Assembly (NCBI RefSeq): GCF_003323745.1 | Contig: NZ_QOIL01000035.1 | Location: forward strand, 1 to 64,000 | Origin: Sphaerisporangium album | GTDB taxonomy: Bacteria > Actinomycetota > Actinomycetes > Streptosporangiales > Streptosporangiaceae | Direction of reading: 5' to 3' | DNA length: 64,000 nt | In this document: positions 29,610 through 58,746 of the stretch, in pieces | Layout: every line of letters starts with the position of its first letter | Numbering within the stretch: the stretch's first letter is position 1 | Made by a program: the position numbers and the translations under genes | The notes under the pieces: generated by a model | The model's input: the letters and a program-made list of their open reading frames with translations, nothing else | Databases searched by the model: none | Told to the model about the DNA's origin: nothing

Positions 29610-29919
29610 ATCACCTCAGCCCCTGCCTGCTCTGCGACCAGTGACCGCGAGCAACCGGGACTGGGTCACGAGTCGCAGCTCCATGCCTTCAAAACCGGCC
29701 ATGCGTTGCATCGCTCGGCGGATTCCGTTCTCTGACCTTGACAGCATCGCCGGAGGCGAGGACAGAGGCGACTCCCAATTCGGTTAACATCAGGGATCGT
29801 CACTGACCTGGATCAATACTGAGGAGATCGTGCTCAAGTGACCTGTTAGGGTCTACTACACCAGGCGGAGCAACAGGCATGGATCGCCGCACCGATGGGC
29901 AGGAGGTTGAATCGCGCTG
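29610..29919. other. Divergent intergenic region holding the shared promoter motif
   Basis: About 310 nt between the leftward DUF574-like gene and the rightward XRE gene. The only distinctive element is the 44-nt bipartite motif at 29768-29811. Confidence 0.6.
29768..29811 (-). promoter_or_regulatory. Bipartite shared upstream motif, copy 1
   Basis: On the minus strand: CCAGGTCAG (29811-29803), 13 nt, TGTTAACC (29789-29782), four variable nt, TGGGAGTCGC (29777-29768). It lies upstream of the DUF574-like methyltransferase start at 29609. Three further copies are at 48757, 54140 and 58703 with identical spacing. Confidence 0.85.
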
Positions 29920-31479
29920 ATGTCGGTTAATTCACGCGATCGTGGCCGTCGCTCTCAAGAGCTCATCAGCCGGGGCTTTACCCGGGAGCAGGTTGCCGCG
30001 ATCTGGGAGGCACAACACCCGAACATCTCCCCTCGTGTTGCTTTCCGCTGGGCGCACAACCTCACCCAGGAGCAAGTGGCAGACCGGTGGAATGCGCTCG
30101 ACCCTGGCACTGTGACGATGACCAAGGCCCGGATCAGCCACTTTGAATGCTGGCCGGAGACCAGCACTGGCCGCCGCCCGGCCGTCGCCCAGCTGGACAT
30201 GCTCGCCCGCATCTACCAGACGACAGCTCGGCAGTTACTCACCAGCAAGGAGTATGACCTTTACGGCGCCAAGAGCCAGGCGGCGATCAACCGGATTGAC
30301 CATCGGCCGCTCGGCGATGGCCGAAGATCCCATAATCCGCAAATCGAGCCGAACAACGTCCCACCCAGCGAGCCGGTATCCGAGCTGTGCGATTTGGCAG
30401 GGGATGGAATCCTCGCCGCCGTGAGACTCTCTGCTGAGGGAGAATCCCCGAGACTAGAAGAAATCCTCAGGACCTGGGATGAGACTATGCGGCGACGCGA
30501 CCTTTTCACACTTACCGGAGGCATGGCGGCGACGTTCCTGACCCCGGCCGCACCGGCAACGTTCTCGTTGCCGGAATTCGGTCCGCAGCTATACGCGATG
30601 TGCGCGCAGTTGACGGCAACCTACCGTCAGATGGACAACATGCTGGGGCCCCACGCCGTGTACGGACAGGCCGTAGATCATCACAAACAGCTGATCAGGT
30701 GGCTCCGGTACGCCGAAAGCATCAAGGTGCGGAAGCATCTCAGCGCGTTGGCCGTCGATGCCGGCGGCTTGGCCTCGTGGCTGTGCCTTGATCTGGAGCA
30801 ATACGACCAGGCGTTCCACCTGGCCCGTCAGTCTGCCGCCATCGCGCAGGAGCACGATCATGATGTTGGCCGGCAGGCTTACATGGTCGGACGGATGAGT
30901 CGCATCCTGTCCGAGTGCGCTCGCTTCGAGCAGGCGTTGCAACTGGCTGACGAGGCGATGCGGCTTGCCGGCAGCAAATCGGCCGCGGTACTGATCTCAT
31001 GGCTCGCAGTCACTCGCGCGTTCATCCACGCGTGTCTGGGGGATGATCGGTCATGCCGAAAAGACCTGGATACGGCTGCTCAGTTTCTGGAGCGCGCGGA
31101 AGGGCAACCTGCGGAGAACTACCTCGCGTTCCATGATCAAGCCCATCTCCTCAAGATGCAGGGACTCTGTCTTCTCAAACTCGGCGAGCACTCATCGTCG
31201 ATGGTGACGGAGGGGCGGCTGGCGATTGATCGGGCGTTTGCCACATGGCCGGCAACGGCCGTTCGCGCCTCAGCGGAGGTGTTGGCCGCTCGAGCCTCAG
31301 CGCGTATAGCGCAACGCGAGATACCGGAGGCCGCATCCTTGACCGGCCAGGCCTACAGAATCGCCATGCGAACGCAATCACCTCGCAACCTGCGCGCCGT
31401 CGCTCATCTGCGCCTTCGACTGCGTCCCTACCGGCATACCGATGCGGTCAGGGACCTGGACGACCAGCTCGCTCTGTGA
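29920..31479 (+). CDS. XRE-family transcriptional regulator with TPR tail
   Basis: A 519-residue regulator. The N-terminal about 115 residues contain an extended HTH (RVAFRWAHNLTQEQVADRWN, TKARISHFECWP, LDMLARIYQTTARQLL), typical of actinobacterial Scr1/XRE-TPR proteins. The middle RRRDLFTLTGGMAATFL is a family hallmark. From about residue 230 the protein is TPR-like helices (HLSALAVDAGGLASWLCLDL, RQAYMVGRMSRILSECARFE). Its stop overlaps the EamA transporter start (GTGA), so they are coupled. Divergent from the methyltransferase at 28803. Confidence 0.85.
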   Translation: MSVNSRDRGRRSQELISRGFTREQVAAIWEAQHPNISPRVAFRWAHNLTQEQVADRWNALDPGTVTMTKARISHFECWPETSTGRRPAVAQLDMLARIYQTTARQLLTSKEYDLYGAKSQAAINRIDHRPLGDGRRSHNPQIEPNNVPPSEPVSELCDLAGDGILAAVRLSAEGESPRLEEILRTWDETMRRRDLFTLTGGMAATFLTPAAPATFSLPEFGPQLYAMCAQLTATYRQMDNMLGPHAVYGQAVDHHKQLIRWLRYAESIKVRKHLSALAVDAGGLASWLCLDLEQYDQAFHLARQSAAIAQEHDHDVGRQAYMVGRMSRILSECARFEQALQLADEAMRLAGSKSAAVLISWLAVTRAFIHACLGDDRSCRKDLDTAAQFLERAEGQPAENYLAFHDQAHLLKMQGLCLLKLGEHSSSMVTEGRLAIDRAFATWPATAVRASAEVLAARASARIAQREIPEAASLTGQAYRIAMRTQSPRNLRAVAHLRLRLRPYRHTDAVRDLDDQLAL

Positions 31480-32324
31480 GTAGGCGAGATGGGGTCTTAC
31501 TGGTTCTGCTCGGCGCCATATGGGGGGCTATCTACCCGCTGACCGCTGTCGTGCTTCGCGACCTACCCGTTTCGGTGGTCGTCATCGCTCGTACTGGTTT
31601 GGCCGCGATAGTGCTGACTCCGTTGGCCCTCCGCAGCGGGGCGCTGAAGGCCGTGCGGGGCCGCTGGAGGGCAGTGTTGGTCGCAGCACTGGTACAGGTC
31701 GCCATCCCGTTGGCCTTACTGACTGGCGCGCAGCAGTACGTGTCCGCCGGGCTGGCCGCGATTCTCGTCGCCACCCAACCGGTTTGGGCAGCAGTATTGA
31801 GCGCCACTTTCAATAACGCTGTACGAGTACGGCAGATGACCGGTGTGCTGATCGGGTTGAGCGGGGTGATCGTGCTCTTCCTTGGCGACATCGACATTGG
31901 CAGCAGCAGTGGGTGGGCGGCAGTTGCACTTGTGGCCGCAGCAGTTTTCATCGCCGCAGGCGCGCTCTGGGTTGAAAGAACCCTTTCTGATGTCCCTGCG
32001 CTAGGAATCGCCACAGCTGCCATGGCAATCAGTACCGTGGTGATAGCACCATTTGCGGCCGTGGTGACAATCTCGCCGCCACCGCCATCCACGCTCGGAT
32101 TACTGCTGATTCTTAGTGTGGTGTCCACCGCTGGAGCGCTGGTGCTCTTCTACACTTTGATCCGTCGCATCGGCGCTGTACGTGCGAACCTCGCCGGATA
32201 TTTAGATCCGGGATTCGCGATCGGCTACAGCATAATCTTTCTTGGCGACCGTGCCACCCCGACCGCACTCATCGGCTTGTTCTTCATCCTTGCGGGCTCC
32301 TACATCGGTGCCATGAGCCGCTGA
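31476..32324 (+). CDS. EamA/DMT-family transporter
   Basis: A 282-residue drug/metabolite transporter with ten membrane helices in two EamA repeats. It begins SRRDGVLLVLLGAIWGAIYP, then VVVIARTGLAAIVLTPLALR, GAQQYVSAGLAAILVATQPV (end of first EamA unit), and the second repeat from GVLIGLSGVIVLFLGD to YLDPGFAIGYSIIFLGDRAT. The GTG at 31476 overlaps the previous stop by four bases. It probably exports a small metabolite under control of the coupled regulator. Confidence 0.9.
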   Translation: MSRRDGVLLVLLGAIWGAIYPLTAVVLRDLPVSVVVIARTGLAAIVLTPLALRSGALKAVRGRWRAVLVAALVQVAIPLALLTGAQQYVSAGLAAILVATQPVWAAVLSATFNNAVRVRQMTGVLIGLSGVIVLFLGDIDIGSSSGWAAVALVAAAVFIAAGALWVERTLSDVPALGIATAAMAISTVVIAPFAAVVTISPPPPSTLGLLLILSVVSTAGALVLFYTLIRRIGAVRANLAGYLDPGFAIGYSIIFLGDRATPTALIGLFFILAGSYIGAMSR

Positions 32325-32394
32325 CCTCCAGGAGCAGATGAGTGCACATGCTGGCGCGCCCCATAGACCCCACCGTCCATACTCTGCTGGGCGG

Positions 32395-34040: not shown

Positions 34041-34055
34041 CAACGGTCTCCGGTT

Positions 34056-34278: not shown

Positions 34279-35526
34279 ATGAGCGTTGGCACGATCGCTA
34301 GCGAGAGTCTCCGCAACGAGATGGTCGACCGCCTGGCAGCCGATCATCATGCGAAGGGTCTGGCCCTGCGCCCCGAGGTGGAGGCCGCGATGCGGACCGT
34401 CCCCCGCGAGCTGTACACGCCGGGTATCCCTCTGGAGGAGGCGTACGAGAACACCGCGATCATCACCAAGCGGGTCGGTGAGGAGAACATCAGCTCGGTG
34501 TCGGCTCCGTTCCTGATCGCGGAGATGCTCGGTCAGGCGGCGGACGCGCTTGGCCGCATGGAGGGCCGGCATGTGCTTGAGGTTGGCAGTGGTGGTTACA
34601 ACGCGTCGCTGCTGCGTGAACTCGTCGGCCCCGCCGGGTCGGTCACGACCGTCGACATCGACCCCGACGTGACCGACCGGGCCGCCGCCTGCCTGGAGGC
34701 GGCGGGCTACAACGACGTCATCGTGGTGTGTGCGGACGCCGAACAGCCGATCGAGCCGGGCCGCCGCTACGACCTGATCATCGTCACGGCCGGGGCGTGG
34801 GACGTGGCGCCCGCGTGGCGCGACCAGCTTGCCGAAGACGGTGTGCTCGTCGTGCCGCTGCGTACGTTCGGGATGACCCGATCATGGGCGCTGCGACGCT
34901 CAGGGGACCATCTGGTCAGTGAGAGCCACCGCCAGTGCGGGTTCGTCTCCGTACAGGGTGCCGGAGCCCACGAGGTGCGATACGTCGACATCGCCGACGG
35001 TGTCCACCTGCGGCTGGATGAGGGCCAGCAGATCGACCCCGCCGTTGTCGCTGACATCCTCACCAAGCCCCGGGAGGAGGCGTGGGCCGGACTGAGCCTG
35101 CCGCCCCGCACCGTCCTGGCCGACCTGAACTTGTGGCTGGCGACCCACCTCATATGCGAGGTGCAGGAGTTCGTGGTGCTGTCGGCGCAAGAAGGGGCCG
35201 TCAGTTCCGGCATCGTCGCCCCCTCGTGGCGGTTCGGCACCCCTGCCACCCTCCACGACGGCACGTTCGCCTACCGGTCGGCCCTGCGCTGGACCGGCAG
35301 GCTTTTCGATCTCGGCGCATACGCCCACGGGCCCGAGGCCGCCCTGGCGGCCGGGCGGATGGTCGAGCACATGCGCGCGTGGGTGGACGCGGGCAGCCCG
35401 TCTCCGGTGCTGCATGTCCTTCCCGCGCCTGCCCCCGACGGCGACTTGCCGGACGGGGTGGTTCTGGACAAGCGGCACAGCCGCCTCGTCCTCGCCTTCA
35501 CCCCCGATGAGAAGGGAACCCGCTGA
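34279..35526 (+). CDS. FxLD-type lanthipeptide methyltransferase (PIMT-like)
   Basis: A 415-residue protein with an N-terminal protein-L-isoaspartate methyltransferase fold (residues about 30-210: VEAAMRTVPRELYTPGIPLE, ISSVSAPFLIAEMLGQ, HVLEVGSGGYNASLLRELVG as SAM motif I, SVTTVDIDPDV as motif II). The C-terminal half, ending VLAFTPDEKGTR, resembles the companion domain of the 'methyltransferase, FxLD system' family. Such enzymes methylate an Asp side chain of a modified peptide, leading through succinimide to isoaspartate; that chemistry is known for LanS-type homologues and inferred here. The stop overlaps the precursor start (TGATG). Confidence 0.85.
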   Translation: MSVGTIASESLRNEMVDRLAADHHAKGLALRPEVEAAMRTVPRELYTPGIPLEEAYENTAIITKRVGEENISSVSAPFLIAEMLGQAADALGRMEGRHVLEVGSGGYNASLLRELVGPAGSVTTVDIDPDVTDRAAACLEAAGYNDVIVVCADAEQPIEPGRRYDLIIVTAGAWDVAPAWRDQLAEDGVLVVPLRTFGMTRSWALRRSGDHLVSESHRQCGFVSVQGAGAHEVRYVDIADGVHLRLDEGQQIDPAVVADILTKPREEAWAGLSLPPRTVLADLNLWLATHLICEVQEFVVLSAQEGAVSSGIVAPSWRFGTPATLHDGTFAYRSALRWTGRLFDLGAYAHGPEAALAAGRMVEHMRAWVDAGSPSPVLHVLPAPAPDGDLPDGVVLDKRHSRLVLAFTPDEKGTR

Positions 35527-35657
35527 TGGAGTATGAACTGAACCTCCGCCTGGTCGACGCCGGGCCCGCCGCGAGCGGTTACGCCACCAGCACCGACGAC
35601 AACTGCGGCTCGGGCGACACGGGCTCGGACGCCTGCTCGGGCGACGGCTCCAGCTGA
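35526..35657 (+). CDS. FxLD-family lanthipeptide precursor, 43 aa
   Basis: Too short for ordinary gene calling. Reads MEYELNLRLVDAGPAASGYA, then TSTDDNCGSGDTGSDACSGD-GSS. YELNLRLVD corresponds to the F-x-L-D leader motif. The core has Cys27 and Cys37, Ser/Thr residues for dehydration on both sides, and Asp24, Asp25, Asp31, Asp35 and Asp40 as candidate targets of the PIMT-like enzyme. The ATG overlaps the methyltransferase stop. A strong hairpin 15 nt downstream separates it from the dehydratase. Two Cys would allow at most two (methyl)lanthionine rings. Leader is unusually short. Confidence 0.8.
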   Translation: MEYELNLRLVDAGPAASGYATSTDDNCGSGDTGSDACSGDGSS

Positions 35658-35671
35658 CCCGCCCACCCATC

Positions 35672-35697
35672 GGGCCCGGCCTTCAGAGGCCGGGCCC
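35672..35697 (+). terminator. Hairpin between precursor and dehydratase genes
   Basis: GGGCCCGGCCT (35672-35682), loop TCAG, AGGCCGGGCCC (35687-35697), a perfect 11-bp stem. Position between a precursor and its synthetase genes fits a partial terminator or mRNA-stabilising hairpin that yields more precursor than enzyme. Confidence 0.8.
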
Positions 35698-35727
35698 TCC
35701 CCTTCCTTCTGCTAACCCCGGAACGCG

Positions 35728-38499
35728 GTGCGAGAGATGTTCCAAGCGGCGGAGGCGGCGTTGATCAGGGCCGCCTCCTACCCTCGAGATCTGACGCTGC
35801 CCGCCTGGCCCGACCTGACCACCGACCAGCCCAAGGAATGGCTGGAGTGGCTGCGGAAGGCGTGGGCGCTGCCGGAGTTCGCTGCCGCCGTCGTGCAGGC
35901 CGCGCCGCAGCTGGCCGCCCAGATCACCCGCGCCTTGGCCCACGAGCCGATTCAGACGCGCAGGCTACGGCGCCTGGTGGAGGCGACGGTCCGGTATCTG
36001 CTGAGGTGGACGACCCGCGCGACCCCATTTGGCAGGTTCGCCGGCGTGGCTCCGGTCGAGCTCGGCCCCCGCGCGGTGGTCCGTTGGGGGGAGCGGCACC
36101 ACGACGTGGCCCGCCCCGACGACCACTACATCGCCGAGTACACGGCTGCGGCCGAGCGGGACCTGCCGACGCTCCGCACGGTCGCGGTGGTAACGAACGC
36201 GCTGGGGTACGCCCGGGGCGGGATGTGGGTGCTGCCCTGCGCCCGCGCCAGCGACGAACGGATATGGGATGTCGAGATCGACCTGACCAGCCCGGTGCGG
36301 TTGGCGGTCGAGACGGCCAGCGCCCCGATCGCGTTCGGGGACCTGGCGGCCAAGGTGGCCGAGGAACTGGCCACCGACACCTCGGCCGACACCCCGGCGG
36401 CCGAGGGGCTGCTGGTCGCGCTGGTGAACGCGGGGGTGCTGCTGTCGGCGGTCCGGCCGCCGATGACTGTGACCGACCCGGCCGCGCACCTCGCCCGCAA
36501 CATCGACCTCCCCGATCCCGGCAACAGGATCGCGGTGGATCTGCGGGTCGACTGCTCGGTGACGCTGCCCCCTACGGTGATCCGCGAGGCTCGGGCGGCC
36601 GCCTCCGCGCTTGCCGCCGTCGCATCGCACCTGCCCGGCTGGGCCGCCTACCATCGCGCGTTCATCGAACGGTGGGGCCCGGGCGCGGCCGTACCGCTGC
36701 GCGACGTCTTGCGCATTCTCGGGTTCCCCGCCGGGTACCGGGGCTCCCCCCGCCGTGACCCGGCAGCGTTCACCGCCCGCGACACTGTTCTCGCGACGCT
36801 CGCCCAGCAGTCGGCCGTGGACGGCTGCGCCGAAGTGGTACTCGATGACGACCTGATCGAATCGCTGCGCGGCGACGACGACCGTCCGCCGATCCCGCAC
36901 ACCGAACTGCGGTTCACCCTCGCCGCCGGAACACCACGAGACCTCGATCGAGGCGCGTTCATGCTGACGGTGGTGAGCGGGGCCCGCCACGCGGGCGTCG
37001 CAGCCACACGGTTCCTGCACCTGCTCACCCCACCCGAACTGGAGCGTTTCCGCCGCGTCTACGCGAGCCTGCCAACCGCCATGCCCGGCGCGGACACGGT
37101 GCAGTTGTCCGGGCCCCCACTCGACACTCGCCTGGCCACCGTCGCCCGCACGCCCGAACTACTGCCTGTCCTGCCCGTCGGCGACTTCCACCCCGATCCG
37201 TCGTGGACGCTGGAGGACCTGGCGGTGGCCGGCGATGGTCAGCGGCTGTGGCTGATGTCACGCACCACCGGGCGGCCGGTCGAGCCGTTGCTGGTCAACT
37301 GCGTGCTCCTGCCGACCGGCCAGCAGCCGCTCATCCGGTTCCTGACGGAGATCTGGACAGCGTGGACGGCTCCGTGCAGTCGGTTCGACTGGGGGCACGC
37401 CCGCGGTCTGCCGTTCCTGCCACGGATCCGGCGGGGCCGCTCCATCCTGCACCCGGCCCGCTGGACCATCCCCGCGACCGCGCTCCCCGCCCGCACCGCG
37501 ACGTGGCCGCAGTGGCGGGCCGCCTGGCAGCGGCACCGCGAACGGCAACGGCTGCCGCGGGTGGTGCTGATCGGCGAGAACGATGTGCGGCTGCGCCTCG
37601 ACCTGGACGAGAACGCCCACCTGGCGGTGCTGCGGAGCCACCTCGACCGGCACGCGAGCGCCGTCCTCGTCGAGGCCGGCGGGCCGTCAGACTGGATTGA
37701 CGGCAGACCAGCCGAACTCCTGCTCACCCTCACCCGCACCCCACCGCGCCACCGGCCGCCGACCCGACTGGTCCATCCCGCCAGCACCCTTCAGCATCGG
37801 CCCGCCCTGTCGCAGTGGCTGGACGCCCGCCTTTACGGCCGATCCGACGACGTCCTCGCCCGGCTTGCCGACCGGCCCGCGACCGAACTGCCAGAGGGCT
37901 GGTGGTTCCTGCGCTACCCCGACCCCGAACCCCATCTGCGGCTACGGATCCCGCTGCGCGCCACCCGGTTCGGGGACGCGGCTCACGACCTCGCTATGTG
38001 GGCGGAGCGGCTACATGACGACGGACTGCTGCGCGACTACACCTTGCACACCTATCGGCCCGAGACCCGCCACGGGACCGGGCCAACCCTTGCCGCGGCC
38101 GAGGCGGTGTTCGCCGCCAACTCCCGCGCCGCCCTTCAGCGGCTGTCCGGCGACCGGCAAGCCGCCACGGCCGCAGGGATGATCGCTATCGCCGACGCCT
38201 TCACCGGCGATGGCCTGCGCTGGCTCTCCGAGCGCGCCCCCCGCCGCAGCGGCCCGCGCCTGAAAGCCACCCAACTCGCCGCCGCCCGCCACCCTTACGG
38301 AGACGACGATCTGCGCACGGCGCTGGCCGCCTACCGGGCACTCGCCGACCGCGACGGCCTGGACACCGACCAGGTGCTGGCCGACCTGCTGCACCTGCAC
38401 CACGCCCGCATGATCGGCGTCGACACCGCGTCCGAGCGGCACTGCCTGCGCCTGGCCCGTGCTATCGCCCGCGCCGACATCGTTCGGGGGACGTCATGA
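35728..38499 (+). CDS. LanB-type lanthipeptide dehydratase
   Basis: A 923-residue class I dehydratase with both usual parts: an N-terminal glutamylation domain (Lant_dehydr_N; hallmark RATPFGRFAGV at about 95-105, later VLRILGFPAGYRGSPRRDPA) and a C-terminal elimination domain (SpaB_C; WWFLRYPDPEPHLRLRIPLR, DYTLHTYRPETRHG). It uses glutamyl-tRNA to dehydrate Ser/Thr of the precursor. Starts GTG 35728 or ATG 35737; neither has a strong Shine-Dalgarno, as expected if it depends on read-through from the precursor message. Stop overlaps the LanC start (ATGA). Confidence 0.9.
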   Translation: MREMFQAAEAALIRAASYPRDLTLPAWPDLTTDQPKEWLEWLRKAWALPEFAAAVVQAAPQLAAQITRALAHEPIQTRRLRRLVEATVRYLLRWTTRATPFGRFAGVAPVELGPRAVVRWGERHHDVARPDDHYIAEYTAAAERDLPTLRTVAVVTNALGYARGGMWVLPCARASDERIWDVEIDLTSPVRLAVETASAPIAFGDLAAKVAEELATDTSADTPAAEGLLVALVNAGVLLSAVRPPMTVTDPAAHLARNIDLPDPGNRIAVDLRVDCSVTLPPTVIREARAAASALAAVASHLPGWAAYHRAFIERWGPGAAVPLRDVLRILGFPAGYRGSPRRDPAAFTARDTVLATLAQQSAVDGCAEVVLDDDLIESLRGDDDRPPIPHTELRFTLAAGTPRDLDRGAFMLTVVSGARHAGVAATRFLHLLTPPELERFRRVYASLPTAMPGADTVQLSGPPLDTRLATVARTPELLPVLPVGDFHPDPSWTLEDLAVAGDGQRLWLMSRTTGRPVEPLLVNCVLLPTGQQPLIRFLTEIWTAWTAPCSRFDWGHARGLPFLPRIRRGRSILHPARWTIPATALPARTATWPQWRAAWQRHRERQRLPRVVLIGENDVRLRLDLDENAHLAVLRSHLDRHASAVLVEAGGPSDWIDGRPAELLLTLTRTPPRHRPPTRLVHPASTLQHRPALSQWLDARLYGRSDDVLARLADRPATELPEGWWFLRYPDPEPHLRLRIPLRATRFGDAAHDLAMWAERLHDDGLLRDYTLHTYRPETRHGTGPTLAAAEAVFAANSRAALQRLSGDRQAATAAGMIAIADAFTGDGLRWLSERAPRRSGPRLKATQLAAARHPYGDDDLRTALAAYRALADRDGLDTDQVLADLLHLHHARMIGVDTASERHCLRLARAIARADIVRGTS

Positions 38500-39569
38500 C
38501 GGCAGGCCAGTCCCTCGCCGACGGGGCGGCGGGAATCGCCCTCCTCCACCTGGCAACCGACAGTTGGGAGGCGACGTACGCGGCGCTGGAAGAAGCAGTC
38601 GCCGGCGGTGTCAGCGTCGCCGGCGGCGCCAGCCTCTACTACGGCGCTCCTGCCCTCGCGTTCGTCCTCGCCTCTTCCGACCAGCCCAGTCTCGCCCGAG
38701 CGCGAGCGACCGCAGCCGTCGGCCTCAAGGCGGTGACGCGCCATCGCCTTGAGGCCGCCCACCGCCGCATCGACCAGCACCGGCAGCCGGAGTACGCCGA
38801 GTACGATCTGATCCGCGGTCTGACCGGACTAGGCGTCGCCCTGCGCCGGGCCGGCGATCTCGATCTGCTCCGCGAGGTGCTGACCTACCTGGTACGCCTC
38901 ACCGAGCCGATCGGGCCGCTGCCCGGCTGGTGGTGCCGCCACGGACCCCACCGCGAGGACGTGCCCGGCGGCCACGGAAACTTCGGGATATCTCACGGCA
39001 TCTCGGGCCCTCTCGCCCTCTTAGCCCTCAGTCACCTTGATGGCGTCCACGTCGACGGCCACGCCGAGGCGATCGGACGGATACTCCGATGGCTGGACTC
39101 CTGGCAGCGCCAAACCGACAACGGCGCCGCGTGGTGGCCGCAGACCATCACCCTCACCGACCTCGAACGCGCAGAGTCCGCCCAGGCCGGCCCGCTACGC
39201 CCATGCTGGTGCTACGGCACCCCAGGCATCGCCCGCGCTTGCCAACTCGCCGCCCGCGCCATCACCGACCCCGCACGCCAGGAAACCGCTGAAGCCGCAT
39301 TCGGCGCGTGCGTGAGCGACCCCCATCAACTGGCCCGCCTCACCGACCGGGGCCTGTGCCACGGGACCGCGGGACTCCTAGCCACCGCCCGTCGCATCGC
39401 CGCCGACGCCCGTACCCAGATCCCCCTCACCCTGATCGAGAAAAACCACCAGCACACGCCGGCGGCCTCCGACGAACCCGCCGGACTCCTGAACGGAACA
39501 GCAGGCATCGCGCTGGCCGAGACCGCAGAAGCCGCCACCGGCTGGGACGCCTGCCTCCTTCTCATCTGA
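38496..39569 (+). CDS. LanC-type lanthionine cyclase
   Basis: A 357-residue LanC-like zinc enzyme that adds Cys thiols to dehydroamino acids. The alpha-toroid repeats carry their glycine motifs: VAGGASLYYGAPALAFVLA, GLTGLGVALRR, GGHGNFGISHGISGPLALLA, and the zinc ligands in CWCYGTPG (Cys239) and LCHGTAG (Cys288, His289). Coupled to the dehydratase by a 4-base overlap. Shorter than NisC but normal for actinobacterial LanCs. Confidence 0.9.
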   Translation: MTAGQSLADGAAGIALLHLATDSWEATYAALEEAVAGGVSVAGGASLYYGAPALAFVLASSDQPSLARARATAAVGLKAVTRHRLEAAHRRIDQHRQPEYAEYDLIRGLTGLGVALRRAGDLDLLREVLTYLVRLTEPIGPLPGWWCRHGPHREDVPGGHGNFGISHGISGPLALLALSHLDGVHVDGHAEAIGRILRWLDSWQRQTDNGAAWWPQTITLTDLERAESAQAGPLRPCWCYGTPGIARACQLAARAITDPARQETAEAAFGACVSDPHQLARLTDRGLCHGTAGLLATARRIAADARTQIPLTLIEKNHQHTPAASDEPAGLLNGTAGIALAETAEAATGWDACLLLI

Positions 39570-39579
39570 AAGGCCGACC

Positions 39580-41093: not shown

Positions 41094-41203
41094 AGGTCAT
41101 GCGCTTGCACGGGGAGCGGACGGGCGTCGGCCTGGGGTGCGTCGTTCATTTGCTCGTTCCCTTGTGGTCGTCGCGGCGTAGGTGGGTGGTGGCAGGGGAA
41201 ATG
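41094..41203. repeat. Second copy of the TPR-gene 5' region
   Basis: Near-identical to 26574-26683, starting exactly where the IS3 orfB homology ends. On the minus strand it encodes the N-terminus MNDAPQADARPLPVQAHDL and upstream region of a TPR-protein paralogue. So it is the surviving 5' stub of a second TPR gene cut by the IS3 element, or a rearrangement junction. Confidence 0.8.
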
Positions 41204-45873: not shown

Positions 45874-45888
45874 GCGCTTTCCAATGCA

Positions 45889-48500: not shown

Positions 48501-49226
48501 ATCAACCTTCATGTGGAGCGACGGCAATCAGGAAGACCACCCCAGGGGCGCCGCCTTCTTCGTGCGGCACACCTCGGACCTGACCTACGAGGAAGCCGGC
48601 GACCTAGCTGCAAGGACATTCCCTTTGCGCTGGAACGAACACCTGAAATCGTGTCGCCTTGCAGATCAACCGACTTGTCGGATCGGACAGCTCCTCGCCA
48701 GATACCGCTTTTGACCTTGACGACCCTCACAAGGGTGACCACATCCGAAGCTGATGGCGACTCCCATCTTGGTTAACACTTCGCGCTGGCTCTGAGCTGC
48801 CCGGACATCGCTGACCGCCTCGGCTAGTCACCGGGTACGGTATACAACATGAGTAGCCCGAAAGCGCCTAAGGAATGCCACGGAGGTCATAATATAGACA
48901 AACCATGACAAGTGACTGATAATCGGTACGGCAGTGGATGTCGGGGACGTATCTGTCTTCGCGGGCAATGGAGTGGCATCCTGCGAGAGAAGTCCAGCAC
49001 GGTTTTACTGCCGGGCTCGGCACAACACTGCGTGGCCGGGAACCCGACCAGGCAGTGGGGGGAGTTTTCTGAATTGTTCACTTTCCGGGCCACGGTTGAT
49101 CTGGCGACGGGCAAGGAGCTGCCGACAGCAACGAGCATGGTGTGCGGATCAGCCAGAGGTATCGGCGCGTCCGCCAATTACCGAAACTGCCATGGCAGAC
49201 GACGACCAAACGATTAATCTGGCACG
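48501..49226. other. Long intergenic region upstream of the conservon
   Basis: About 725 nt. Holds copy 2 of the bipartite motif (48757-48800). The 48540-48720 and 48930-49190 stretches contain ORF-like frames in several phases, none with a start signal or family. I consider it non-coding or decayed. Confidence 0.5.
48757..48800 (-). promoter_or_regulatory. Bipartite shared upstream motif, copy 2
   Basis: On the minus strand: GCAGCTCAG (48800-48792, 7 of 9 matches to the other copies), 13 nt, TGTTAACC (48778-48771), four nt, TGGGAGTCGC (48766-48757). Same orientation as the conservon genes. Confidence 0.8.
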
Positions 49227-49862
49227 ATGACTGACCCAAACAACCCGGCAGTAGGCCAGCGAACGGCGTTAGACCTCGATGCCATCCTCGCCGCGAGATG
49301 GGCCGATCCCGAGCAGTTCCCTGCCGATGAGTGGATCCGGGCCGAGCGGTTCTGGCACGCGCGCCGGGCCGACGACGAGCGGCTGTTCGAGATCCGCGCG
49401 CAGGCAGCCGGGCTTCTCGCCTCGTGGAGCGGGCGTGAGGCGCGCGATGTCGGTTCCTTTGGCATCCAGGTGAACCTGGAGACCAGCGACCTGGACCTCG
49501 GGATCGGCTACCCGGTCGATGACCATGACCGGCTGATCGCCGCCATGAAGCCGTACACCGAGTACGTCGGCGAGCGGTACACCCGGTTCGACACCACCCG
49601 ACTGATCTTCGTGTTCGATCACCGGGACGTCAGGATCGAGGTCTCGGCGCTGACGGAGGCGGACTTCGTCGTGGCGTGCCGCATGCTGGACGAGATCGGC
49701 ACCGGGATGACCGAGCAGGAGCGGATCGCCCACACCTGGGTCAAAGAACTGCTTCGCGTGGCAGGCCGGATGGAGGAGTACTCGGCCTGGAAGCTCGTCA
49801 CCTACGCCCGGTACTGCCAGGAGTTCAACTGGGTGCCGATCCCGGAGCGGTCCGCCGACTAA
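49227..49862 (+). CDS. Nucleotidyltransferase-like protein, 211 aa
   Basis: Soluble alpha/beta protein. REARDVGSFGIQVNLETSDL-DLGIGYP resembles the GS-x(n)-SDxDL signature of polymerase-beta-type nucleotidyltransferases, and FDHRDVRIEVSALTEADF could carry a further acidic residue. The C-terminal half is helical (EQERIAHTWVKELLRVAGRM). Family assignment is tentative. It converges with the radical SAM gene: the two stops overlap by 3 nt. ATG 49227 has no strong Shine-Dalgarno. Confidence 0.6.
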   Translation: MTDPNNPAVGQRTALDLDAILAARWADPEQFPADEWIRAERFWHARRADDERLFEIRAQAAGLLASWSGREARDVGSFGIQVNLETSDLDLGIGYPVDDHDRLIAAMKPYTEYVGERYTRFDTTRLIFVFDHRDVRIEVSALTEADFVVACRMLDEIGTGMTEQERIAHTWVKELLRVAGRMEEYSAWKLVTYARYCQEFNWVPIPERSAD

Positions 49863-51991
49863 GTGCCGCAGGGATCGGCGGCGTTGATCAGCTGCCAGCC
49901 TGCCGAGGCCGCCCACCGGCCGTGCTCGTAGCGCAACCGGTGGGCGGCCTGCGGCGGCAGCACCGCCAGCACCTGCGGGACGTTGTCGCCGATACGGGCG
50001 CGGAGCTGCTGAAACGCCTCCTCCAGCATCGCGTCCAGTTCCGCGGTCAGGTGGGGGCCCGCGGCCGGGGCCGTGCCCCGGCCGATGATGCCGATCATGC
50101 GAGTGAGTACCGCGAACGCGGCGTCCTTGATGACCACACGGGCCGCGCGTACGCGGCGGCGGGGCTCGCCGTCGAGGATCTTCTCCAGCGACTTCAGGGT
50201 GTAGTCCAGCGCGAAGTTGCGGTCGACCCACAGTTGCGCCCGCTCCGAGCAGGCGCCGATGCGCAGGTCTGCGAACGTGGCGTCGACGCGGCCCATCGAC
50301 GGACGCACCGTACCGGTAAGGCCGGCGGCGTGCACTTTGCGGGTGTAGGCGGCGCCGATCAGGCATTCCATGCTGACCAGCATGTAGGAGACGCCGGTGT
50401 AGAACGGGCGGCCTGTGCTGTGCTCGGCGACGAAGCGCGGGTCGCGGACGCCGTCGACGATCTGCTCGGCGGTGAGGTGCGGGAGTGGGCGCAGCAGCAG
50501 ATCAGTGCGGCCGAGGAAGGCGTGCGTGGCCCGCAGTTCCCCCAGGGGCATCAGGTGGTCGAAGGTGATGTAGGTGTACCGGGTCGGCACACCGAGCGCA
50601 GACAGGGTCTGGATGCCGAGGGCGTTCTGGTCGGCGTCGGTCTCCTTGTTGAAACGTTCCAGAATGCCTTGAACTCCGGATTCCACGCCGAACAGGCAGC
50701 TGCGTAGCCCGTCGCGGACCGGCCTTCGCCACATGTGAGCGCGCTCGATGTGCCAGTCGCGGTCGTGGCCGGGGTGCGCGACCTGGTCGATCCGGCAGGA
50801 GGTCTCCCACTGAAAGCTGGCCTTGGCCATCTCCGCGGCGATCGCCAAAACGCGTGGTACGGCGTCGTGGTCGCGTCCGATGGCCTCCTCGTCCACCAGG
50901 TACACGGTGCGGGAGATCTCCGGATGGCGCCGAAACTCCTCGTCCAAGGCCGCCAGCATCCACGGGAGCTGGGCGGGCGCCCCGCCCGCCCAGGTGCCCT
51001 TGTGTCCGCGAGGGCAGAACGAGCAGTTGCTGGTGCAGCCTCGTGTCGTCTCCAGCTGCGCCACGCCCTGGTGTTCGAACGTCGAGCCGAGCAGGTCCAG
51101 TTCGGGGAAGAAGTCGTCGGCGTCGCGGTTGGGCAGCGTCGCGGTGCGGCGCCGGGTCAGCACGACGGCGCCGCCGCGGGGGGCGCCCACATATCCGATG
51201 CCCCGGATTTGCTCACGCTCCAGGTCGCCGTGCCAGTGCGCGATGACGTCGCGGATGGTGGGCTCGCCGGCGCCGCGGGCGATGAGCAGCCGCGGATAGC
51301 GCTCCAGCAGCAGCGCCTCGTTGCGGACGGTCAGGCTGCCGCCGGCTAGGACCAGCGGCACCCGATGTTGGACCTGGTCGAGCAGGCGGGTCATCAGCTC
51401 ATGCTGGCCGAAGGTCGCCGAGACGCCGAGAATGTCGGGGGCCTGCTCTCCTACGGTCTCAAGGATGGTGTCGAGGGTGACGCCGAGCTGCATGTCCATC
51501 AGCGTGACCTCGCCCGACAGGGTGGAGCGGGCCGCCCGGGCCAGGTCAGAGATGGCCAACGGAAACCGCGGCAGCGGGAAGTACTCGGGCCGGTACAGCG
51601 CCACCAGCAGGACTCGCGGGCGCGTCAGCCGCGTGACCGCCTCCGGGGTCAGGTCGGCGTAGCTGATGAAGGTGTCCCCGGTGTGCAGCCGCAGGTGGGT
51701 GGCGGCCCAGTCGGGCCAGGTGCGCGTGCTGTGCGGCTGCCCGGACAGATCGGCCAGCAGCCAGGTGCCAGGCTGCTGGCCGGTAGTGATCGCGAGCAGC
51801 CGCCGCTCCAGGGTGCCGGTGATGACGACATCGTGGCCGGGAAGGACGCCGGCTATGGCGTCGCGCAGCGCGGCGGGCCGGGTGCGCGGGACCGCGCGCA
51901 CCGCCTGCTGCTGGTCGGGGTGGAGTGTGGCCAGGCGGCCGATGGCGTGCAGGAGCAGGTCGTGGCTGGTGGGCACGTCGCTGGTGAGCAT
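49859..51991 (-). CDS. Radical SAM protein with B12-binding-like N-terminal domain
   Basis: About 710 residues. The iron-sulfur motif CTSNCSFC (Cys329, 333, 336 counted from the ATG at 52021) follows LETTRG. Residues about 130-280 (PRVLLVALYRPEYFPLPRFP, PDILGVSATFGQHELMTRLL, VPLVLAGGSLTVRNEALLLE) resemble the Rossmann-like cobalamin-binding domain of class B/E enzymes. HDRDWHIERAHMW and CLFGVESGVQGILERFNKET fit the radical SAM barrel. I favour ATG 51991 (CGGAG upstream) over 52021. Lies 85 nt downstream of the EEP gene in a leftward operon. Substrate unknown; methylation or rearrangement of a secondary metabolite is plausible. Confidence 0.85.
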   Translation of the reverse strand: MLTSDVPTSHDLLLHAIGRLATLHPDQQQAVRAVPRTRPAALRDAIAGVLPGHDVVITGTLERRLLAITTGQQPGTWLLADLSGQPHSTRTWPDWAATHLRLHTGDTFISYADLTPEAVTRLTRPRVLLVALYRPEYFPLPRFPLAISDLARAARSTLSGEVTLMDMQLGVTLDTILETVGEQAPDILGVSATFGQHELMTRLLDQVQHRVPLVLAGGSLTVRNEALLLERYPRLLIARGAGEPTIRDVIAHWHGDLEREQIRGIGYVGAPRGGAVVLTRRRTATLPNRDADDFFPELDLLGSTFEHQGVAQLETTRGCTSNCSFCPRGHKGTWAGGAPAQLPWMLAALDEEFRRHPEISRTVYLVDEEAIGRDHDAVPRVLAIAAEMAKASFQWETSCRIDQVAHPGHDRDWHIERAHMWRRPVRDGLRSCLFGVESGVQGILERFNKETDADQNALGIQTLSALGVPTRYTYITFDHLMPLGELRATHAFLGRTDLLLRPLPHLTAEQIVDGVRDPRFVAEHSTGRPFYTGVSYMLVSMECLIGAAYTRKVHAAGLTGTVRPSMGRVDATFADLRIGACSERAQLWVDRNFALDYTLKSLEKILDGEPRRRVRAARVVIKDAAFAVLTRMIGIIGRGTAPAAGPHLTAELDAMLEEAFQQLRARIGDNVPQVLAVLPPQAAHRLRYEHGRWAASAGWQLINAADPCGT

Positions 51992-52076
51992 GCGGATCTC
52001 CGTGTGGACGAAAGACGGCATGGCGACATCGCCCCGGGGCGCCGTTGAGGCGCGCAGGGGCGGGTGAGCGGCGGTG

Positions 52077-52913: not shown

Positions 52914-53774
52914 CGGTTTCCCTGAGGGTTTCGTCGACGAGCACCTCCCCTTGCTCATCCAGCCGGGCCTGCACCTGCCCCATGATCAGGCGAGCCTGTT
53001 CGATCACCTGCGGTTGCGGCGGCGCCCCGAGCGCGGACAGGTTCCTTTCCACCTGACGGGAGTTGGTGAACCCGACCAGGACGGCGGCTTGAGAATAGCG
53101 ATCCAGGCACGCCCACAGGGCCAGCCTGATGAGATCCTCCGGGCGCCACCCGACCAGCTGCTGGAGCTCCTTCAGTCCCTCGTCGATGATCCCGATCGCG
53201 GGTGGGGTGAACCACCGCTTACGCAGCCGGTGATCCCCCCTCCCCGAAGGCGGGCATCCCGGCCGGGTCGTAGGTGCCGGTCAGCAGGCCCTGCGCGAGC
53301 GGCTTGTTGATCAGCACGCCGACGTTGTGCTGCTCGGCGAACGCGAAGATGCCTTGGGAGCTGGCCGCGGGGGACAGCAGATTGTCCCGGACCGCGAGCA
53401 CGTCAGGGTCGACGGCCTCGAACACCGCGCGGAATCGGGCGGTCTTGTCGCCGCGCTGGCCGGGCGCGACGGCGAGACGGTCGAGTGCGAACCGGTGCGG
53501 GCCGCGCATGCCGATCGCACCGATCAGCCCTTCCCCCTGGAAGCCGCGCATCGCCTCCACGGCCGGGCCCAACCATCGGTCACCATCGCCGAAATTGGAG
53601 TGGTGCAGGAAGTACACATCCAGCCGGTCGGTCCCCGCGAATACGTCGAACCCTGGGCGCAGGCACCCGGCTGAGGCCACGGTTGAAGACGGTGACCTCC
53701 CATCCACGCCGTGCCGCCTCCACCACGACAGCGCTGCCAACGAACCACGAGCCACCAATGACCAATATCCGCAC
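52900..53774 (-). pseudogene. Aldo-keto reductase remnant fused to an epimerase N-terminus
   Basis: From GTG 53774 the frame reads VRILVIGGSWFVGSAVVVEA-ARRGWEVTVFNRG, the Rossmann start of an NAD-dependent epimerase. In another frame follows DVFAGTDRLDVYFLHHSNFG and LLTGTYDPAGMPAFGEG, the middle of an aldo-keto reductase. Removing one base from the C6 run at 53235-53240 continues as HRLRKRWFTPPAIGIIDEGL ... AAVLVGFTNSRQVERNLSAL ... ETDDQL to the stop at 52900. So the C-terminal half may be intact; the N-terminal half (with the catalytic Tyr) is lost and replaced by a few dozen epimerase residues. Confidence 0.65.
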
Positions 53775-54329
53775 CTCAACATCATCCCCCTGATACTGAG
53801 GGGGTGGCGAGCCCCAATCAGACCAGTGGCAGATCACGCGACATCAGGGCAACGGTTACCGCTGACCCCGGTAGTAGCCCACTGCCGCCAGTAGCACATG
53901 AACAGCCAATCAGCATCTGCCAATACCGCGAACACCGAATCCTGCAATTACACGAGGACGCGCATCAGAGAACGGTGTCATCTCAGAGAAAACGATCCAC
54001 TCAGGGAAAAACGCGAGCATTGAAATCTGGCACGACACCGGCCCCGCATCCTGGACCTACTCCAAGGCGTCGGATGTCACAGTAACGAGAACATGTAGAC
54101 CACGGCCGGTGACCAGACGACGACACCGGCGACATCGTCCCAGGTCAGCCTGGCTGCGCCTTGTTAACCCAACTGGGAGTCGCATCCAACCTCAGATGTC
54201 GCAATGATCATCAGACGTTGTCGAGGTCGAAAAGCGGAACCCGCCGAGGCGAGGCATCACCTGGCGGGCTCCTTGGTCGCAATGGAGGTTACGACCCATG
54301 GGGCACATTACATTGGCTGGTGCGCCGTG
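53775..54329. other. Intergenic region with shared motif
   Basis: About 555 nt between divergent genes. Holds copy 3 of the bipartite motif (54140-54183). No gene seen; the longest frames are out of codon bias. Confidence 0.6.
54140..54183 (+). promoter_or_regulatory. Bipartite shared upstream motif, copy 3
   Basis: CCAGGTCAG (54140-54148), 13 nt, TGTTAACC (54162-54169), four nt, TGGGAGTCGC (54174-54183). It lies 146 nt upstream of the DUF574-like methyltransferase ATG. The following 25 nt, including ATGATCAT, also resemble copy 4. Confidence 0.88.
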
Positions 54330-55196
54330 ATGAAGGGCGAGCAGACGCCGCCATCGGTCAGGGTTCCCTTGGATCAGGGGAGGTCAGGAAGCAACAGGGC
54401 CGACGGCCGTCGTCCAAAGATCGACATCACCACGCCACACGTGGCGCGGATGTACGACTACTACCTGGGCGGCAAGGACAACTACCGCTCCGACCGCGAC
54501 GCGGCCGAAGAAGTGATCGCCAAGTTCCCCGAGGCGCGTCAGCTCGCTCTGGTGAACCGGCATTTCCTGCGCCGCGCCGTCGCGACCCTGGCCGGACAGA
54601 TGGGCATCGCTCAGTTCCTGGATCTCGGGTCGGGCTTTCCCACACAGGAGAACGTTCACCAAGTCGCCCAGCGCATCAACCCGGCCGCGCGGGTGGCGTA
54701 CGTCGATCTGGAAGATGTCGTGCTGGCCCACGGCCAAGCGCTCCTGGCCACCGACGAGCGCACGATCATGGTGCAGGGAGACATCCGGGAGCCGCGGACC
54801 ATCCTCTCGAGCCGTGACCTGCAAGCCCATCTGAACTTCGACGAGCCCATCGCCGTGCTGCTGATCTTCGTGCTGCATTTCATCAAAGACGAGGAACAGC
54901 CACAGGAAATCATCAGAGACCTGATGCAGGAGATGCCTCCAGGGTCATGCCTCGTCATCTCCCACGCAACACCCCGTGATGACCTGATGCAAGGCGTCAA
55001 GGCGTACGACAACGCCAGCTCCCCGGTTTCACTGCGCACCGAGCCGGTCATCCGAGCATTCTTCGACGGGTTGGAGCTCGTAGAGCCGGGCCTGGTCCCC
55101 TTGGCCCTATGGAGGCCTGGATGGCCTCAGTCAGAACTCCCCTCTAAGGACCTCAAACTGCCGGCCCTGTGTGGCCTGGGGCGGAAGCCTGCATGA
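54330..55196 (+). CDS. DUF574-like SAM-dependent methyltransferase, second copy
   Basis: A 288-residue paralogue of the 28803 protein with the complete family N-terminus: VARMYDYYLGGKDNYRSDRD, FPEARQLALVNRHFLRRAVA, IAQFLDLGSGFPTQENVHQV (motif I), ARVAYVDLEDVVLAHGQALL, IAVLLIFVLHFIKDEEQPQE, PPGSCLVISHATPRDDLMQG. ATG 54330 is favoured because the family starts shortly before this region; the frame extends to 54204. Substrate unknown. Followed by the APH-like gene after 122 nt. Confidence 0.88.
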   Translation: MKGEQTPPSVRVPLDQGRSGSNRADGRRPKIDITTPHVARMYDYYLGGKDNYRSDRDAAEEVIAKFPEARQLALVNRHFLRRAVATLAGQMGIAQFLDLGSGFPTQENVHQVAQRINPAARVAYVDLEDVVLAHGQALLATDERTIMVQGDIREPRTILSSRDLQAHLNFDEPIAVLLIFVLHFIKDEEQPQEIIRDLMQEMPPGSCLVISHATPRDDLMQGVKAYDNASSPVSLRTEPVIRAFFDGLELVEPGLVPLALWRPGWPQSELPSKDLKLPALCGLGRKPA

Positions 55197-55318
55197 GCGC
55201 GTCGATGTCCGGTTGTACCTACCGAGCCGCAAGCTGGCCTCCACAAACGAGCACAGGAGCAGGCACCGCAGGAGAGACCACTTCACAGTGCTGCGCCGTA
55301 TCTGGAGAGTCTGTCGCT

Positions 55319-56119
55319 ATGGCTACGAACGTCTCGTTCGACGAGTTGCCGGTCATGGTGAAAGCTGCCGTTGAAGCACGTATCGGGCTGATCATCGCAA
55401 CACGGCCGATCCCCGGGGGGCCCAACAGCGTGGTTTCCGCGTACGTGAAAACCAGCGGAGGGGACTACTACGTGAAAGGGCGCCCTGACGACCATCGGCG
55501 AGTTTGGACGCACTCCACCGAGTGGAACATCAACCCGTTCGTCGTTTCCGTATCGCCACGTCTGGCATGGCGCATCCGGATCGATGACTGGGACCTTCTG
55601 GTCTTCGCATTCCAGGATGGCCGTCATGCGGACTATTCACGGCCCGCCGATCAGGCCATGGTCACTGATCTCCTGCGGCAGCTCGGACGACTTCCTCTTC
55701 CTCGTGACGCGTCGGCGAGACGGGCAGAGGAGCGATGGGCGATGCACACCGAGACGCCGGAGGTGCTGGCAGGAGATCATCTGCTGCACACGGACTGGAA
55801 CCCCCGACACGTCCTGATCGATGAGAAAAGGGCACACCTGGTCGGCTGGAGCTACCCCACTCTGGGAGCGGCGTGGATCGACCCCGCGTGCTGGCTTGTC
55901 TGGCTGATCCAGGCCGGCCACAACCCGTCCGCCGCCGAGCGCGCCGCCGCACGCGCACCGTCCTGGGACACCGCCTCCCGCGACGCCTTGGATTCCTTCT
56001 CCGCGACGCAGGTCAGCTTCTGGACCTCGCTCGCCCATGAAAAATCTGACCCACGAGCGAACCAGCTCGCCGCGGCCGCCCGGCGCTGGGCGTCGCACCG
56101 GCAGCAGCTCAAGCGCTGA
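55319..56119 (+). CDS. Aminoglycoside-phosphotransferase-fold protein, probable pseudokinase
   Basis: A 266-residue APH-like protein. LLHTDWNPRHVLI (His157-x-Asp159-x4) is the Brenner-type catalytic loop, but the metal-binding Asn position is His164, and the second metal-binding Asp is replaced: LVGWSYPTLGAAWIDP has Gly176 where relatives have VDW. The fold-level match is otherwise clear (DYYVKG with a possible ATP-lysine, Lys53). Loss of both metal ligands argues against ATP transfer; it may be a binding protein. Its C-terminal tail and following hairpin region are duplicated twice nearby. Confidence 0.75.
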   Translation: MATNVSFDELPVMVKAAVEARIGLIIATRPIPGGPNSVVSAYVKTSGGDYYVKGRPDDHRRVWTHSTEWNINPFVVSVSPRLAWRIRIDDWDLLVFAFQDGRHADYSRPADQAMVTDLLRQLGRLPLPRDASARRAEERWAMHTETPEVLAGDHLLHTDWNPRHVLIDEKRAHLVGWSYPTLGAAWIDPACWLVWLIQAGHNPSAAERAAARAPSWDTASRDALDSFSATQVSFWTSLAHEKSDPRANQLAAAARRWASHRQQLKR

Positions 56120-56807: not shown

Positions 56808-56814
56808 AGATCGT

Positions 56815-56848: not shown

Positions 56849-56920
56849 GTTACCCATGAGCTGGGCGGCGGCGCGGTGACCACTCCCATCCGCGCTGCCG
56901 CCCCCTTGAAAGAATCATTC

Positions 56921-57841: not shown

Positions 57842-57947
57842 CACGTCACCCGGATTGTTCGCGGCTCGGGTGCTGGTGAGGCCCTGTCTGGTTGTGGACC
57901 GGTGATGTTTCCTGTAGGTCCCCGGCTGATGTTACGGAGAGTTTGAC

Positions 57948-58441
57948 GTGGCCCCTACCTACATGTTTTCCAGTGACTCCGCTAGGCGTGAGGTGCTGGA
58001 TCGGCTGGAACAAGGCAAGAGTCTCCGGGAGATCGCAGCGGAGCTGCGTTTCAGTCGGAGTGCGCTGCTTCGCGCTCGTACGGTGTACCCGGGGTTTGAT
58101 GCTGAGGTTGTCGCGGCATCGGGTGGGCGGTTGCTCCCGATTGCTGTGTCTCCGGTCGAGCCCGAGAGTATCTTCTCCGGCTTGAAGATAGACATTCTCA
58201 GGGCTGTATGGGTGAATCAGGCCTTCACTAATGACGCGCTGAACGAGATAGCCACCGATCGCGGCCTGACCACAAGGACCTTATGGTCATGGGGCTACGG
58301 GATAAGCGGTGGGGCTTGCTCATGGATGAGTCTCTTAGATGCGTTCGTGATCCGCTCTGGAAGCATGGTATTACGACTACGTATGTGCGCCGGTCGTGCC
58401 GGTGTCCGGACTGCCGGGTGGCGGCTCGGGGCGGTCGTTAG
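57948..58441 (+). pseudogene. HTH protein with C-terminal zinc-like domain, frameshifted
   Basis: GTG 57948: LDRLEQGKSLREIAAELRFS, RSALLRARTVYPGFDAEVVA form an HTH. The coding frame continues to TRTLWSWG; adding one base at the G4 run 58291-58294 gives GLRDKRWGLLMDESLRCVRD, PLWKHGITTTYVRRSCRCPD-CRVAARGGR and a stop at 58441. HGxxxxYxxGCRCxxC-like endings are common in small actinobacterial/phage proteins. Without the correction the frame runs to 58466 with unlikely sequence. Confidence 0.6.
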
Positions 58442-58702
58442 GCATAGACGAACTTGGCCGGGTTGACGGAGATGCTGTGCCTGGGCGACGTCGGCTGCGG
58501 AGCGATGATGTCCACGTCGATCATCAGCATGTTGCCAGCGCGGCCGGCCTGCTGGCAGGCGATCTGCCAAGAGCATTCGAGGTCATATCGGGACGGTGCG
58601 CTCACTCTTGAACCTGTAGTCCAGTCGTGGGATCGAGGTGTCAGAGATCTTGCGCTCTGTAGACCATAACCGGTGACCCCTGTGGATCCCTTCGGAAGTG
58701 TT

Positions 58703-58746
58703 CCAGGTCAGCGACGGTCTGCGTTGTTAACCAAACTGGGAGTCGC
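58703..58746 (+). promoter_or_regulatory. Bipartite shared upstream motif, copy 4
   Basis: CCAGGTCAG (58703-58711), 13 nt, TGTTAACC (58725-58732), four nt, TGGGAGTCGC (58737-58746). 211 nt upstream of the EEP gene start, with element b in between. Flanks align with copy 3 for another 25 nt. Confidence 0.88.

Follow-up and report, generated by a model that had tools for sequence, protein, structure and literature searches.

A repeated element in front of four gene groups

We analyzed a 64,000-nt stretch of the Sphaerisporangium album genome (contig NZ_QOIL01000035.1, positions 1 to 64,000; hereafter the window), focusing on a 44-nt bipartite element that occurs in it four times (c1 to c4). Each copy precedes one of four gene groups in a single actinomycete gene island, and together they probably act as a shared switch: c1 stands in the divergent region between a DUF574 methyltransferase gene and the gene for an NsdA-family regulator with helix-turn-helix (HTH) and tetratricopeptide repeat (TPR) parts, c2 before a conservon, c3 before a second DUF574 gene and c4 before an EEP gene (Table 1). 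The initial annotation of this region had proposed that the element was a dedicated promoter or operator; it had not named the neighbouring regulator, whose identification as an NsdA-family protein is added here by its match to the NCBIfam model NF053720.

Table 1 Candidate operator modules, proposed regulator, putative targets and neighbouring genes in the window
Feature	Position	Strand	Details
Module c1	29768-29856	-	U1 GTAGACC 29850-29856; U2 GGTCAC 29838-29843; M CAGGTCAG 29803-29810; P TGTTAACC 29782-29789; T TGGGAGTCGC 29768-29777; core 29768-29789
Module c2	48757-48845	-	U1 GTATACC 48839-48845; U2 GGTGAC 48827-48832; M CAGCTCAG 48792-48799; P TGTTAACC 48771-48778; T 48757-48766; core 48757-48778
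Module c3	54095-54183	+	U1 GTAGACC 54095-54101; U2 GGTGAC 54108-54113; M 54141-54148; P 54162-54169; T 54174-54183; core 54162-54183
Module c4	58659-58746	+	U1 GTAGACC 58659-58665; U2 GGTGAC 58672-58677; M 58704-58711; P 58725-58732; T 58737-58746; core 58725-58746
Proposed reader, NsdA-family HTH-TPR regulator (519 aa)	29920-31479	+	divergent from c1; NF053720, E=1.4e-46
EamA transporter	31245-32324	+	next after regulator; 63% identical to gene after homologous G306 regulator
c1 target, DUF574 (Methyltransf_19) methyltransferase	28803-29609	-	PF04672, E=1.9e-61
Possible second gene of c1 unit, O-methyltransferase (Methyltransf_2)	27238-28383	-	31% to G306 cluster enzyme; putative operon member
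c2 target, conservon, then two P450s	43298-48527	-	P450s 47% and 36% to G306 cluster P450s; putative operon
c3 target, DUF574 methyltransferase and next gene	54204-56119	+	DUF574 47% to a G306 copy
c4 target, EEP gene, HAD hydrolase, second EEP gene	58958-61251	+	EEPs mutually 32% identical; putative operon
Class I FxLD lanthipeptide cluster	34279-40380		beyond regulator; methyltransferase (TIGR04364), precursor, LanB, LanC-like, Lant_dehydr_C
FxLD precursor	35526-35657		TIGR04363, 47 bits against a cut-off of 30

The element itself was as first described. The core TGTTAACCN4TGGGAGTCGC was found four times in the window when up to three mismatches were allowed, each time exactly (0.03 matches expected; none of 100 shuffles reached four), and its upstream half, nCAGnTCAG at exactly 13 nt, was present in all copies. 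On a position weight matrix of the 44-mer the four sites scored 54-65, and the next best place in the window 4.6. The strong conservation of the 22-nt second half was likewise confirmed, with a corrected count of 19 rather than 18 invariant columns. A recount from TGGGAGTCGC to the start codon also fell within the reported range of 146-256 nt: 158 nt for c1, 229-256 nt for c2 (depending on the start), 211 nt for c4, and 146 nt for c3 when counted to the in-frame ATG at 54330 (the longest open reading frame begins 20 nt downstream of TGGGAGTCGC).

Architecture of the module

Two further boxes upstream extend the 44-nt element to a module of 88-89 bp. These boxes, U1 (GTAGACC) and U2 (GGTGAC), begin 46 and 33 nt before CAGnTCAG (box M), or 45 and 32 nt in c4. 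Relative to TGTTAACC (box P), all four copies have U1 in the form GTA[GT]ACC at -67/-66 and U2 in the form GGT[GC]AC at -54/-53; TGGGAGTCGC is box T. Pairwise identity among the four copies was 0.92 for U2, 0.94 for M and 1.0 for both P and T, compared with 0.40, 0.33 and 0.46 for the three spacers and 0.26 for random sequence. Downstream of the module, similarity runs on in part for ~80 nt, mainly in c1-c3, with a short c3-c4 piece. Because c1-c3 share one downstream block and c3-c4 another, the copies appear to be homologous by duplication, and are probably old duplicates whose boxes were kept. The M string alone was also enriched in the window (10 exact CAGGTCAG versus 2.3 expected), 7 of the 10 lying outside the four operators. 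In addition, a 41-nt direct repeat (90% identical) links the c4 leader (58799-58839) with 61457-61497, just past the start of a helicase-like open reading frame at 61396.

The neighbouring regulator

The regulator divergent from c1 scored 160 bits with NF053720 (cut-off 75), and fell far below the NsdA and NsdB equivalog models (32 versus 830 and 38 versus 700 bits, respectively). It had no Pfam match at E<=0.001 and no HTH Pfam match even at E<=1. The AlphaFold2 model (mean pLDDT 77.9) has a helical N-domain (residues 1-127), a low-confidence linker (130-217) and a helical-repeat half (222-518). In Foldseek searches with the whole protein, LGN was the best match among TPR proteins and RapF/RapH appeared further down (E about 6e-3). 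When modelled alone (pLDDT 89), the N-domain gave weak fold matches (best E 0.51, none <=0.001), many of the top ones being Cro/CI-type repressors, and a PDB sequence search with the N-domain profile yielded one match (E=0.085). The genome has 27 matches above the NF053720 cut-off. A C-terminal fragment of the family at 41701-42459 (67 bits, below the cut-off) may represent a second, truncated regulator of the island.

Occurrence in the own genome

It had been suggested that the pattern would be enriched genome-wide upstream of DUF574, conservon and XRE genes. Such enrichment was not seen. Across the whole genome (9.3 Mb in 62 contigs), four occurrences of the core and one further match with three mismatches were found, versus three matches in the reversed control, and a genome-wide regulon was rejected on this basis. 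A profile built from the four window copies alone (R1) scored these copies at 95-112 bits and also picked up a diverged fifth site, on contig C4 (20.4 bits, E=0.0034), followed by a match at E=0.335. All four full copies lie inside the window, confined to one cluster as would suit a cluster-specific operator, and the diverged fifth lies beside a second regulator. We fetched 24 loci of the DUF574 family, 23 of them above the Pfam cut-off, and the module is present only at the two that lie in the window; for the remaining conservons and XRE genes, coverage came from the whole-genome searches rather than locus by locus. Since the genome holds four sites and one diverged site, with 2 of 24 DUF574 loci, and since at <=1 mismatch neither the genus (10 other genomes) nor the family (340 other genomes) showed the core elsewhere, the proposed regulon linking the conservon, methyltransferases and phosphatase-like enzymes is retained as one gene island, perhaps together with one divergon elsewhere, and not as a genome-wide set. 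The shared sites suggest that the conservon, the methyltransferases and the EEP gene are co-expressed.

Co-occurrence with one regulator subgroup

Searching the 341 genomes of the family with the N-terminal 180 residues of the regulator gave matches in 50 genomes, and 30 loci among the matches listed were examined together with the C4 locus. For each of the six closest regulators among these, which come from five genomes, the divergent intergenic region contains a module copy whose spacing is almost the same. Besides the window, the closest of the matches listed were those of genomes G313 (60%), G220 (51%), G153 (51%) and G306 (44%), all of which carry the module. The C4 site is also divergent to an NsdA-family gene, whose N-domain is 50% identical to that of the window regulator and the closest to it within the own genome; the best other own-genome match of R1 therefore coincides with the own regulator closest in N-domain. 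Four of the five relatives pass the NF053720 cut-off, and the G153 regulator falls below it (67.5 bits).

Several searches recovered these sites. Over the 30 regulator loci R1 picked the G220 site (E=0.0038). When a pattern was relaxed solely on the basis of the window and C4 sites, it matched beside the G220 and G306 regulators and not in loci L077, L079 and L081, and the G153 and G313 sites, with GCTAACT box variants, were recognised by eye. In leave-one-locus-out scans over 15-20 kb, the expected site came first at all five loci (site versus next: G313 21.0 versus 16.7; G220 32.3 versus 9.1; G153 27.8 versus 13.0; own C4 26.3 versus 12.5; G306 33.9 versus 14.6, the latter for the next non-overlapping place). 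With a pattern loosened after the G153 and G313 sites had been seen, the closest fetched loci matched in 4/5 (strict) or 5/5 (loose) cases, the window's own included, versus 0/25 of the more distant ones; on all 30 own NsdA-family loci fetched, it gave a forward match at the two known loci only, and one other loose match in reverse.

Alignment of the nine sites revealed 15 invariant columns out of 78 (GnTnAC, 27 nt, CnGnTnA, 15 nt, GnTAAC, 6 nt, GG). The U2-to-M distance is 33 nt in seven of the nine, and 32 and 34 nt in the other two, and U1 lies 23 nt (G220) or 22 nt (G306) from U2 instead of 13, about one helical turn more. N-domains of the relatives are 46-58% identical to that of the window regulator, whereas full-length identity is 27-30% in four of the five relatives (G306, 55%). 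This difference suggests that the operator tracks the HTH half of the protein. U2 and P share their second letter at C4, G220, G306, G153 and G313 (permutation p=0.033).

A profile of the nine sites found one significant site per genome in the four relatives (next matches E>=0.49), and over the 341 family genomes, with stricter filters, nothing beyond these nine at E<1e-6, a result that is circular for the nine themselves and informative for absence elsewhere. Six extra matches (E 0.002-0.019) were near the chance expectation (341 x 0.02 = 6.8) and were rejected, their 3-kb surroundings being without a regulator homologue (best tblastn E 0.30). Two isolated exact-core matches in a GTDB scan, in Spirulina and Neobacillus, were taken as chance, and four weak matches (13-18% coverage) of the c3 region in a plasmid collection were ignored. 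When 394 genomes, a sample of a larger group, were searched for the regulator at class level, six genomes gave hits at E<=1e-20, with no new member of the module-bearing subgroup among them; the G347 and G327 loci from it had no match to the R2 profile.

A second, more distant subgroup

Two weak matches of the R2 profile (E 0.005 and 0.01) were located upstream of more distant NsdA-like regulators, in loci L094 and L098. Five shorter patterns were tried on such loci, and the one with most contrast, GCAG[GCT]TC[AG], occurred in the same orientation at 12 of 25 distant loci and reversed at 2 (mean 1.14, maximum 4 in 300 shuffles); exact CAGGTCAG was present at 7 of 25, with 2 reversed. In 11 of the 12 loci, when aligned, GGG stands exactly 33 nt before this pattern. 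This signal is no more than suggestive, given the close relationship among several of the loci and the high GC content of the genomes. The gene divergent from the distant regulators is often RsbW-type-ATPase-like (by eye), as it is at the own C4 site (PF13581). Several intergenic regions of L081-L105 have GGGGAT, 27 nt and CAGGTCAG, often divergent to RsbW-like ATPase genes, and possibly represent the same operator architecture in other letters.

A probable multi-box operator and its alternatives

The boxes of c1 to c4, their spacing and the regulator neighbourhood indicate that the module is likely an operator-promoter with several boxes, and that the NsdA-family HTH-TPR protein encoded at 29920-31479 is its likely reader. 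Box conservation, spacing, co-occurrence with the regulator subgroup and a homologous cluster (see below) are direct results of the sequence analysis, and the dedicated promoter or operator first proposed is well supported by boxes kept amid diverged spacers, by the near-fixed spacing and by recurrence of the module next to homologous regulators from other genera. The 44-nt element would be the promoter-proximal part, with U1 and U2 upstream. As about 17 bp separate AGGTCA from TAACC, M and P may occupy the -35 and -10 places, and T would then lie near the transcription start. The N-domain may bind U1/U2 and P, perhaps also M, on one helical face; that this HTH domain reads the boxes is suggested by the matching letters of U2 and P at five of six loci. 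For the diverged TPR half, sensing of a ligand or partner is the presumed role. Since M and P overlap the predicted promoter hexamers, repression with release on a signal seems slightly likelier than activation, a leaning that agrees with the negative regulator NsdAsr as described in PMC12243394. Copying of the promoter within the island could have made the DUF574, conservon/P450, DUF574/APH-like and EEP/HAD units answer to one regulator.

Several observations weigh against this interpretation. The G313 site leads its scan narrowly, and the scan spacings were derived from the same sites. Outside its two G's, T is conserved among the window copies only. The window copies lack the agreement between U2 (GGTGAC) and P (GTTAACC) at box position 2, and for the other five loci it reaches only the p value given above. 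The weak fold matches of the modelled N-domain also count against it. The relatives hold a single module copy each, so that only this genome shows a regulon with several targets. Finally, M might belong to RNA polymerase and not to the regulator, because the second subgroup shares only M and the GGG box at -33.

The last point leads to the foremost alternative, that M and P are the -35 and -10 elements of an ECF-type sigma factor, with the NsdA-family gene as one more regulon member. The M-P spacing fits a promoter, no sigma-70 consensus was found in 53700-54500 around c3, M recurs in the second subgroup, whose downstream box differs, and a 596-aa protein at 22584-24374 combines a long C-terminal extension with a sigma-70 region 4 domain (residues 129-174). 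However, only five significant sites exist in the genome, confined to the loci of one regulator subgroup and the island, U1 and U2 at a near-fixed distance are foreign to a sigma promoter, and an ECF-like gene was noticed by eye at just one of the five other loci (G220) within the 15-20 kb read. We thus regard a sigma-factor promoter as unlikely.

The remaining explanations appear far less probable. An RNA-level leader element beginning at TGGGAGTCGC would account for the block TCnAGGTC...AGCGGaAtCcGCCGAGG conserved in the c1-c3 leaders, with which GGGAnTCGC pairs in a consensus fold (both-side changes in some sequence at 5 of 19 predicted pairs); it is made very improbable by a block unrecognisable in c4, the lack of Rfam matches in the window at gathering score, folding z-scores of -0.86, -1.24, -1.98 and -1.73 and a covariation term of only -0.06. 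A site of a global OmpR-type regulator is similarly hard to credit. The boxes GGTAACC and GGTGACC resemble the GTnAC half-sites of MtrA/GlnR/AfsQ1-like regulators. The string GGTTAAC occurs in one oligonucleotide of the MtrA paper (PMC9045223). Such a regulator, however, would have many sites per genome, whereas each relative has one significant site, always beside the same regulator subgroup. A non-functional relic of repeated segmental duplication, to which the leader stretches common to c1-c3 and to c3-c4 might point, is scarcely plausible with near-random spacers between intact boxes and with the same boxes at nearly the same spacing in other genera.

Relation to known systems

The proposed multi-box operator-promoter resembles several known systems in part. 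The window regulator passes the subfamily model that covers Streptomyces NsdA and NsdAsr, but lies far below the equivalog models; one member of the family negatively regulates antibiotic biosynthesis, according to PMC12243394. A term search of the main text of that article gave no motif, consensus, palindrome or footprint wording, hence no family operator to compare. By AlphaFold2, the domain order fits the RRNPP regulators (Rap/Rgg/NprR/PlcR/PrgX), which combine an XRE HTH with TPR peptide sensors, and RapF/RapH are among the Foldseek matches; in contrast, generic TPR proteins (LGN) score better, and the FxLD precursor is a mere neighbour and a candidate ligand at most. An actinobacterial RRNPP-like module, in which the TPR half senses a peptide from the FxLD system nearby, the operators wire the conservon, P450s and methyltransferases into the circuit and box letters drift with subgroup specificity (GnTnAC versus GGGG), is a speculative and quite doubtful extension.

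In the cvn8 system of S. coelicolor (PMC8510531), a conservon lies beside a lanthipeptide cluster, as here with the FxLD cluster. There the conservon affects lanthipeptide genes, whereas here it is a proposed operator target and the FxLD genes are without a module copy.

Cluster-situated regulators with repeated operators within one biosynthetic cluster are a known general kind. Here, likewise, one regulator faces several near-identical sites in one island, but the regulator class and the four-box architecture differ. Overall, this is a real and local multi-box operator, most likely belonging to a cluster-situated regulator, and as a system it is of an ordinary kind. What is notable is the uncharacterised regulator subgroup and the operator multiplication that draws in a conservon. 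A concrete, testable operator is now proposed for one subgroup of NsdA-like HTH-TPR regulators. Inputs of conservons are mostly unknown, and one is placed here inside a proposed local regulon. No description of the motif was found in the literature, as judged by titles and abstract beginnings among the matches listed.

Putative target genes and related clusters

The conservon shows its gene set in order, HATPase_c (23.4 bits, below Pfam's 26.4), Robl_LC7, DUF742 and ATP_bind_1; an ordered cvnA-D set defines conservons (PMC8510531). No Pfam match was obtained for the gene after the c3 DUF574 gene; its similarity to an APH-fold gene of the G313 operator locus is 26%.

A single operator in G306 precedes a same-strand run (one reverse open reading frame within) of DUF574-like, glycosyltransferase-like, DUF574, NMT1-like, O-methyltransferase and two P450 genes. 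Its window homologues are distributed over c1 (O-methyltransferase), c2 (P450s) and c3 (DUF574), and the regulator (54% identical) and the EamA gene (63%) also have counterparts in both genomes. A conservon homologue was not found in the 40 kb of G306 read. This comparison suggests a route by which a cluster behind one operator splits into units and common control is kept by operator copying. The genes called nearest downstream of the G153 operator encode an FxLD methyltransferase (TIGR04364), an FxLD precursor (TIGR04363) and a lantibiotic dehydratase homologue; in the window, none of the four operator copies heads the genes of the FxLD cluster.

Other features were also observed in the window. 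Between the conservon and c3, positions 49859-52021 encode a 720-aa protein with a B12-binding domain (below the Pfam cut-off), weakly similar to B12-dependent radical SAM models. A 111-nt direct repeat (95% identical) is present at 26573-26683, inside a TPR gene, and at 41093-41203, upstream of the NsdA-family fragment, and a perfect tandem duplication of 169 nt lies at 17437-17774. Finally, a P4-family phage/plasmid primase (D5_N) at 18974-20485 suggests a mobile element adjoining the island.

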